Below are positions 42,872 to 43,659 of a stretch of 64,000 nucleotides of DNA, in pieces. The notes below the pieces were generated by a model. The model was not told the origin of the DNA and ran no database searches. It saw only the letters and a program-made list of their open reading frames with translations. The stretch spans positions 62,001 to 126,000 of the forward strand of contig NZ_CALNVW010000021.1 in the NCBI RefSeq assembly GCF_940670765.1. The letters run 5' to 3'. The position numbers were made by a program, and so were the translations under genes. The first letter of the stretch is position 1, and each line of letters starts with the position of its first letter. Source of the DNA: Streptomyces sp. A 4/2. GTDB lineage: Bacteria; Actinomycetota; Actinomycetes; Streptomycetales; Streptomycetaceae.

Positions 42872-43659
42872 ATGACGTCGGAGCCTGAGCCGGAGCGGTT
42901 CATCGTCCTCACCGGAGGGCCCGGATCAGGGAAGAGCACCCTGCTCGACTTCCTGGAGACCCAGGGCCACGCCCGGTCCCAGGAGGCGGGGCGCGGGATC
43001 ATCCAGGACCAGGTCGCCATCGACGGGCGCGCGCTGCCCTGGACCGACCCGGCGCTCTTCGCCGAACTCATGCTCTGCTGGGAACTGCGCTCGTACCGCA
43101 TCGCGGCAGCGCGGCCGGAACGGGTCTTCTTCGACCGGGGGGTGCCCGACATCGTGGGCTACCTGAGGCTGGAGGGACTGCCGGTACCGGACCACGTCCA
43201 CGCCGCCGCGAAGAGCTTCCGGTACCACCGTCGCGTGTTCCTCGCCCCTCCCTGGCCGGAGATCTACGCCCAGGACAGCGAGCGCAGACAGTCCTTCGCC
43301 GAGGCGGAGCGCACCCAGGGCCTTTCGTTTGGTTCACGCCGGGCTCGCGGGGTCTGGCACTTCCCCAAGGTCTCGGCTTCGCTCGACCAGGGGAGACCCC
43401 ATTGCTCGCCGCGTTGTCGTCGGTCACCATGGCTCCTTCCCCAAGGCCTTGAGGGCCAGGGGAGACCCCATCTGCCTCCCTCCTCCGCCTTGCGATCGCA
43501 CGCACCAGACCCCGCTCCCTGATCCGGCCTGATCCAAACGAAAGACCCTACGCGTCGATGGCCGCCACCTACACCGACTACGGCTACGAACTCGTACGGC
43601 TGCCCCTCGCACCGGTCGAAGAACGCGCCCGGTTCGTCGAAAGTACGTTGCTCGGGTAA
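42872..43659 (+). pseudogene. P-loop (AAA_28) ATPase gene split by a MITE
   Basis: The protein starts at ATG 42872 (GAGGGAG upstream) with the Walker A loop TGGPGSGKST. It runs 148 codons to Thr in AEAERT at 43315. From 43549 the same frame continues (TAC GCG TCG ATG GCC...) for 36 codons to TAA at 43657-43659, with TYTDYGYELVRLPLAPVEERARF as expected for the family. The 233 bp between (43316-43548) break the frame. As it stands translation would end near 43522 after a nonsense tail. Deleting the insert gives an intact protein of about 184 residues. Function probably an ATP/GTP-dependent phosphatase or kinase, unassigned. Confidence 0.85.
43318..43548. mobile_element. 231-bp MITE with terminal inverted repeats
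   Basis: The ends GGGCCTTTCGTTTGG (43318-43332) and CCAAACGAAAGACCC (43534-43548) are inverted repeats with one mismatch. A second inverted pair, GCGGGGTCTGG (43347-43357) and CCAGACCCCGC (43505-43515), lies inside. Two direct copies of a 36-43-bp segment (43360-43402 and 43436-43471) fill the middle. No transposase ORF. The flanks are CA (left) and TA (right); a TA target duplication with one mutation, as made by IS630/Tc1-type enzymes, is plausible. It interrupts an AAA ATPase gene. Confidence 0.85.

Follow-up and report, generated by a model that had tools for sequence, protein, structure and literature searches.

The window, that is, the whole 64-kb stretch of Streptomyces DNA analysed here, holds a gene for an AAA_28 P-loop ATPase that is interrupted by a MITE of 231 bp (43318–43548) without a recognisable gene of its own. 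The 5′ part of the gene (42872–43315, plus strand, 148 codons) has homologs of 53–76% identity in other species, and residues 11–149 of the interrupted frame correspond to Pfam AAA_28 (E 5e-37). Its 3′ part (43549–43659, plus strand, 36 codons and a stop), delimited by the joined translation and the alignment with homologs, is out of frame with the 5′ part. The frame open at present is a hybrid of 216 codons and a stop (42872–43522, plus strand), in which the ATPase head runs into an element-derived tail. The Pfam match is confined to the ATPase part of this hybrid, and neither it nor the second long frame over the element, on the minus strand at 43068–43505, shows any Pfam family besides the ATPase head.

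The element has the traits of a MITE: it is short, lacks a transposase of its own, is bordered by inverted arms, is associated with a TA duplication and an empty site, and has dispersed copies. Its arms, of 26 nt each and 88% complementary, lie at 43317–43342 (plus strand) and 43524–43549 (minus strand), each as aligned with one flanking base included. Positions 43316–43550 read CA-GGGCC...GACCC-TA, where the left copy of the duplicated target TA (43316–43317) is now CA and the right copy (43549–43550) is retained; the target is recognised by an empty site, C-TA-C, at locus L234 of another species, and by other copies of the element family, which have TA within CTAG. Two inward-facing copies of the end motif TTTCGTTTGGNTCA are present in the window, and none in 100 shuffled versions. 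A preliminary description of this DNA had proposed that a 231-bp MITE with inverted ends splits an AAA-type ATPase gene and depends on a transposase from elsewhere; the arms and the AAA_28 match bear out the first point, and the lack of an own gene the second.

The interior of the element is occupied by a structured core, matched by the covariance model R1 at 43393–43517 with the sense strand on the minus strand (43.8 bits, E 9.8e-07; whole-genome E 6.5e-05). One arm of this core carries a small hairpin insert, CTTCCCCAAG..AGGGGAGACCCC (43360–43400, plus strand), which is absent from loci L002, L003, and L008–L012. A second, shorter insert of the same kind (43436–43469, plus strand) enlarges the apical loop of the core, and is present in L002 and L003 and absent from L008–L012. 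The inner inverted repeats of the preliminary description were found as two direct repeats, which are part of these two hairpin inserts in the conserved core and not of the MITE arms. The CTTCCCCAAG..AGGGGAGACCCC motif was found at three places in other Streptomyces loci, which total 882 kb, and nowhere in the reversed control, and inserts resembling those of the window are found in two core elements of the same genome that have other ends (L004 and L005). In other species, the core elements at L075 (1496–1718) and L061 (1496–1743) hold different small hairpins in the core arms or loop (TGGGGGTACCCCC..GGGGGAG and CTCCCCCACTCTCGG..GGGGGGACCCCCA), as if the core tolerated hairpin inserts.

Removal of 233 bp, comprising the 231-bp element and the 2-bp duplication, restores a protein of 184 residues that aligns across the junction with its homologs, as the preliminary description had anticipated. 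The ATPase gene was detected in nine of 392 Streptomyces genomes at E ≤ 1e-30, the own genome and that of a conspecific strain (G382) included. The site is uninterrupted in all seven other-species homologs whose alignment crosses the insertion point (the alignment of an eighth, at L048, reaches residue 130 only), and the 233 bp are coding sequence in no homolog examined. At L234, the empty site reads GAGCGCACC|TACGCGTCGATGGC, letter by letter the rejoined flanks of the window gene, and therefore C-TA-C is most likely the original target in the ATPase gene. The insertion had also been described as recent. This holds at the scale of the genus, where it is young, but not within the species: the conspecific strain carries the element and its junctions without a single difference in 246 bp (10 differences over 2815 aligned bp), the left TA being already CA, so that "recent" can only be meant in relative terms.

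The ends of this element recur in pairs across Streptomyces, and the end CCTNTCGTTTGGATCANG, to which the left arm belongs, was found in 62 of the 246 genomes of the genus searched. Scanning named genomes for ends flanked by CTAGGG gave at least 119 stretches, which, combined with loci from earlier searches, yielded 95 distinct paired-end elements: 20 of 40–79 bp, one of 101 bp, 72 of 143–246 bp, and two long ones (891 and 897 bp). IS5-type transposase frames are present in both of the latter, broken into several pieces in L142. In L213 (5834–6730), the transposase is encoded by two consecutive frames with matches to NCBIfam NF033580 (the first over and the second below the cut-off), as well as to Pfam DUF4096 and DDE_Tnp_1. 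One end of L213 is identical in 19 of 19 nt to other MITEs of the family (such as L198), and agrees with each end of the window copy in 18 of 19 nt. The IS5-family elements with TTTCGTTTGGATCA ends exemplified by L213 thus share with the window MITE the terminal repeat, the TA-in-CTAG target, and the Streptomyces host, but differ from it in their length of ~899 bp, in their two-frame transposase, and in that no core was found in them. Insertion into TA or CTAG targets and a transposase encoded in two frames are features of the IS5 group concerned, in agreement with the present elements. In another Streptomyces genome (G028), 26 matches to the end pattern were observed, many of them at contig ends (L064, L067, L070, and L073, among others); at L064, an element of ~105 bp is cut by the contig end and its interior is, by eye, not the core.

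Relatives of the L213-type transposase are present in 128 of 392 genomes of the genus (E ≤ 1e-40, best 10 candidates per genome), and absent at the same threshold and depth from the own genome and its conspecific. At E ≤ 1e-10, the own genome shows five partial matches of at most 57%. An autonomous parent within this genome was considered and rejected, as the surroundings of the best transposase relatives (C44 and C19) lack such an end, the nearest approach having 4 mismatches in 14. Across the 246 genomes, the presence of the end and that of the transposase are not associated (transposase in 20 of 62 genomes with the end and in 59 of 184 without it). Among 30 transposase loci, 19 have paired ends (18 at a length of 898–900 bp and one at 871 bp), and no pair was found in the other 11. 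The paired ends are mostly of the GGCNGTTTCGTTTGGATCA type with TA junctions, some of them degenerate, and compared with the usual IS end (GGCAGTTTCG..), the MITE end GGGYCTTTCG.. has other bases at positions 3–5 or 6. In the 25 best alignments between MITEs and IS, it is the ends that match, together with weak matches of 55–70 nt at 71–75% identity. Model R1 found no core inside an IS in 66 transposase loci, its single match adjoining an IS on the outside, and an origin of the element by internal deletion of an L213-type IS was consequently discarded. At L261 (1355–1510), a TTTCGTTTGGATCA-type IS5 element lies directly at a CTAG beside a degenerate core element with other ends. The preliminary description had called for a copy count and a parent transposon: the ends proved to be multi-copy in the genus and an IS5-family element with nearly the same end exists, but the full-length element matched only itself in its own genome, where at least 44 matches, itself included and the rest partial, were obtained (both among the best 40 of 62 candidates scored).

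The preliminary description did not mention that the interior is a class-wide structured core common to elements with unrelated ends. With up to two mismatches allowed, the motif TCGCAAGGCGGAG is present in 70 of the 72 elements of 143–246 bp. At E ≤ 0.01, model R1 detects at least 18 copies of the core in the own genome and at least 19 in the conspecific, and a blastn search with one core located it in at least 92 of 150 Streptomyces genomes (best five candidates per genome). In the class Actinomycetes, R1 matches reach at least 96 of 394 genomes and at least 24 of 137 genera at E ≤ 0.001, with strict filters on the best 10 candidates per genome. Spread by phages was considered and rejected, as the phage collection gave no blastn match to the window element, and a single match to a strict exact pattern of the core was found among viral contigs. 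Part of the window element is matched by 55 plasmid records, all of them from Streptomyces. Four core elements of the own genome (L317, L319, L321, and L323, at ~1467–1634) have equal or nearly equal model scores, L317 and L319 sharing the ends CTAAGGGCTGTCCCGTAATTCCTGG, and are possibly a recent burst.

Within the own genome, the core is found between different ends: GGGCCTTTCGTTTGGATCA, AGACCGACCGGCAATTGGGGGG, CTAAGGGCTGTCCCGTAATTCC, ACGACCTCACCCGCGATGG, GGCCGTGTTTTGAAAGT, and GGACCTGTCCAGCCGATC, the last two being those of L004 and L005, whose core is degenerate (34.2 and 24.9 bits). Inverted repeats flanking the core reach a score of at least 13 in 31 of 37 loci and of at least 8 in 35, the other two being again L004 and L005, with the 99th percentile of shuffled controls at 10 in a similar test; by eye, they fall into roughly ten sequence types. 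Ends resembling GGACYTGTCC..GATC are those of a full IS5-family element in another genome (L080). Given this element and the variety of ends in the own genome, one and the same core lies between IS5-type ends of different kinds. Outside Streptomyces, 13 of 20 loci from ten genera have flanking inverted repeats above the shuffled 99th percentile, of several types, and the remaining seven, one of them cut by a contig end, are without such repeats. At L008–L012 (~1410–1585), the outer inverted repeats match within each copy and differ between copies; thus, the ends co-vary too.

The core comprises 98 nt and folds into a long hairpin whose helices co-vary and whose internal loop, formed by GCAAGGCGGAGGA and ACGANAACGC facing each other, is conserved, both strands of the loop being nearly invariant in 42 Streptomyces copies and 20 others. 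In alignment A1, formed by 64 of the 100 core elements collected (other length classes and some others having been left aside), RNAalifold predicts one long hairpin that includes the ends, with at least one double change in 39 of 52 pairs. In alignment A2, consisting of 42 of the 43 cores remaining after thinning at 95% identity (L051, with a different apex, was left out), 96.9% of the cells of the 28 pairs are paired, compared to 80.9% after shuffling; as the structure was taken from overlapping sequences, such percentages lean toward the fold, and the double-change counts are the better evidence. These amount to 16 pairs and 188 cells in A2, against 12.4 and 62.8 in shuffled and at most 10 and 61 in slid controls. 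In alignment A3, made of the 20 non-Streptomyces loci and the window copy and fitted to the covariance model, the pairs with double changes number 21 of 28 (14.6 after shuffling and at most 15 after sliding) and the cells 120 (31.5 and at most 32, respectively); none of these counts takes the kinship of the rows into account. Cells with G.U outnumber those with A.C by 179 to 12 in A2 and by 70 to 2 in A3, and the sense strand folds better than its complement in 42 of 42 (A2) and 21 of 21 (A3) sequences with RNA parameters, and in 41 of 42 (A2) with DNA parameters. The excess of G.U and the better folding of the sense strand suggest a constraint on a single strand, whether in the form of RNA or of single-stranded DNA; the A2 structure is itself biased toward this argument, since the program counts G.U as a pair. 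Rfam returned no match at E ≤ 1 for the window stretch and five other loci. A coding function, considered for some copies with GGAGGA before an ATG, was rejected, since the apical stem to which this ATG belongs is variable (CATG, CGAC, CAAC, or CAGG).

With regard to the target, both junctions are CTAG in 59 of the 95 paired-end elements, a count that is not a rate, most loci having been selected for one such junction. A 2-bp duplication of TA is preferred over one of the four bases CTAG, as judged from the junction sequences, because the window site would have been CTAC when empty and its left junction is CCAG, and because deviations affect the outer bases more than the inner ones (7 versus 1, by eye, where both TAs are intact). 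In 47 of 66 elements with exact borders, the junction lies within 3 bp of a predicted stop codon, compared to 28 of 120 other CTAG sites in the end-scan loci exactly at one (odds ratio 8.1, p 4e-10), the tolerance being looser for the elements than for the controls. Stop codons were those of genes predicted by our own simple gene finder, and the 66 are the A-type members of the 100 core elements, the other 34 having inexact borders. The TAG is regenerated when an element inserts at a TAG stop, and the gene stays intact; the window copy, which lies within a coding sequence, departs from this pattern.

The sense strand of the core points toward the contig middle, where the origin is assumed to lie, in 71 of the 98 matches listed on 31 long Streptomyces contigs (p 1e-5), counts that are not independent, as insertions are shared between species. 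By genome, 21 point toward the middle, 8 away from it, and 2 are even (p 0.02), with G125 and G079 opposite. This sample left out short contigs (including G653:C1 and G004:C1, which represent about a third of their genomes or less), G152:C2, G400:C1, and all other genera. GC skew switches near the middle in G382 and G234, where it is noisy, and shows no clear switch in G081. A genuine orientation bias would mean that the lagging-strand template carries the better-folding strand less often, which is what a loss of hairpins there would lead to, and the coreless elements of 40–79 bp could be products of such loss.

The best explanation of the whole is that 43318–43548 is a MITE of a widespread group with a constant core and changing IS5-type ends, a reading in which we have good confidence. 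Judging from the ends, an IS5-family transposase would have recognised them and moved the MITE. The sequence and the empty sites show its insertion into the AAA_28 gene, at a C-TA-C site, with a duplication of the TA and a frame shift through which the gene runs on into a foreign tail. The core would be the persistent unit, kept going by acquiring the ends of whichever IS5-type transposon is active, and the ends may be replaced by recombination between elements or by capture. The weakest step of this proposal is that the folded strand, as RNA or as a single DNA strand, probably acts in the propagation of the element itself, a role favoured because position and copy number look parasitic and the core shows no sense bias relative to genes. 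The broader proposition—a class-wide structured parasite of actinobacteria, whose strand-specific core of 98 nt is selected and whose ends, from many transposon families, are replaceable, with the fold working as RNA or single-stranded DNA in propagation—is evenly balanced between being right and wrong.

The core could instead be a structured RNA of benefit to the host, for example a small RNA or a 3′ element of an mRNA, that hitch-hikes in MITEs, as its strand-specific fold, its conserved internal loop, and the frequent position of the elements at stop codons (the 47 of 66 mentioned above) would suit. However, this preference can also follow from CTAG targets combined with purifying selection, and the sense strand is unbiased relative to the abutting gene (23 versus 20, and four with both), which speaks against a simple role as a cis-acting 3′ UTR. 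Moreover, copy number is erratic, with up to 298 of 394 genomes of the class without a match at E ≤ 0.001, and a core with its sense strand toward the centre would, if transcribed, be head-on with replication. A host RNA is thus considered rather unlikely.

MITEs normally have ends constrained by the transposase and an interior that is free to vary, and quasi-palindrome correction can yield matched changes in both arms of a hairpin. An ordinary IS5-derived MITE, with a functionless interior spread among elements by recombination between MITEs and with arms matched by such correction, would account for the mixed pieces and nested hairpin inserts that occur, as well as for the 20 coreless elements of 40–79 bp that still have paired ends. 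Nevertheless, correction should also erase an asymmetric internal loop, and GCAAGGCGGAGGA and ACGANAACGC are nearly invariant; likewise, a double-stranded process would not be expected to give a G.U to A.C imbalance of 179 to 12, and the core spans at least 24 of 137 genera. We regard this origin as unlikely.

As for the interrupted gene, the hybrid frame might encode a novel, functional ATPase that has recruited its tail from the MITE, given that its 216 codons are open, most of the AAA_28 profile is kept, and the frame is preserved in two strains. This is distinctly unlikely: the hybrid is devoid of the C-terminal segment that the homologs conserve, and selection cannot be demonstrated with two nearly identical genomes. 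An artefact of sequencing or assembly, conceivable in a draft of 144 contigs for an element that belongs to a repeat family, has a negligible chance, being already contradicted by the conspecific assembly of three contigs, which has the same element and junctions.

Taken alone, the insertion is an ordinary MITE case. Among known systems, REP and REPIN palindromes mobilised by RAYT transposases are, like the present element, short structured repeats spread in trans, although they have no IS5-type terminal repeats and depend on HUH instead of DDE chemistry. QMITE2 of Coxiella is presented, in the review PMC10969869, as a short, non-coding bacterial MITE with paired ends, a target duplication, and an interior that folds into a stem. 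All these features are shared by the window MITE, which differs from QMITE2, as portrayed there, in that one interior is common to many ends and its fold co-varies across a class. A survey of genomes that included Streptomyces avermitilis reported 250 mobile or repeat sequence candidates (MRSC; PMC11109978). One of them, MRSC-65-2, resembles the core in being multi-copy, in having a long stem supported by covariation, and in its orientation not being fixed, and differs from it in the UYCCGG repeat with which it is described. The other candidates of that survey may already include the core. No description of the element or the core was found among the open-licence PMC papers listed, judged by title and beginning of the abstract, and strings of the element led to no such paper that, by title, deals with Streptomyces or with repeats.

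The window copy cleanly illustrates how a gene can be interrupted at an IS5-type target within its coding DNA. The group of MITEs with a constant core, to which it probably belongs, reverses the usual picture of these elements: here, conservation across a class, in sequence, strand, and fold alike, is a property of the interior, and it is the ends that differ. If the proposed explanation is true, it would provide a common structured repeat family for actinobacterial genomes, together with a testable case of end swapping, and would lead one to ask how a transposon benefits from a hairpin that is both conserved and strand-specific.
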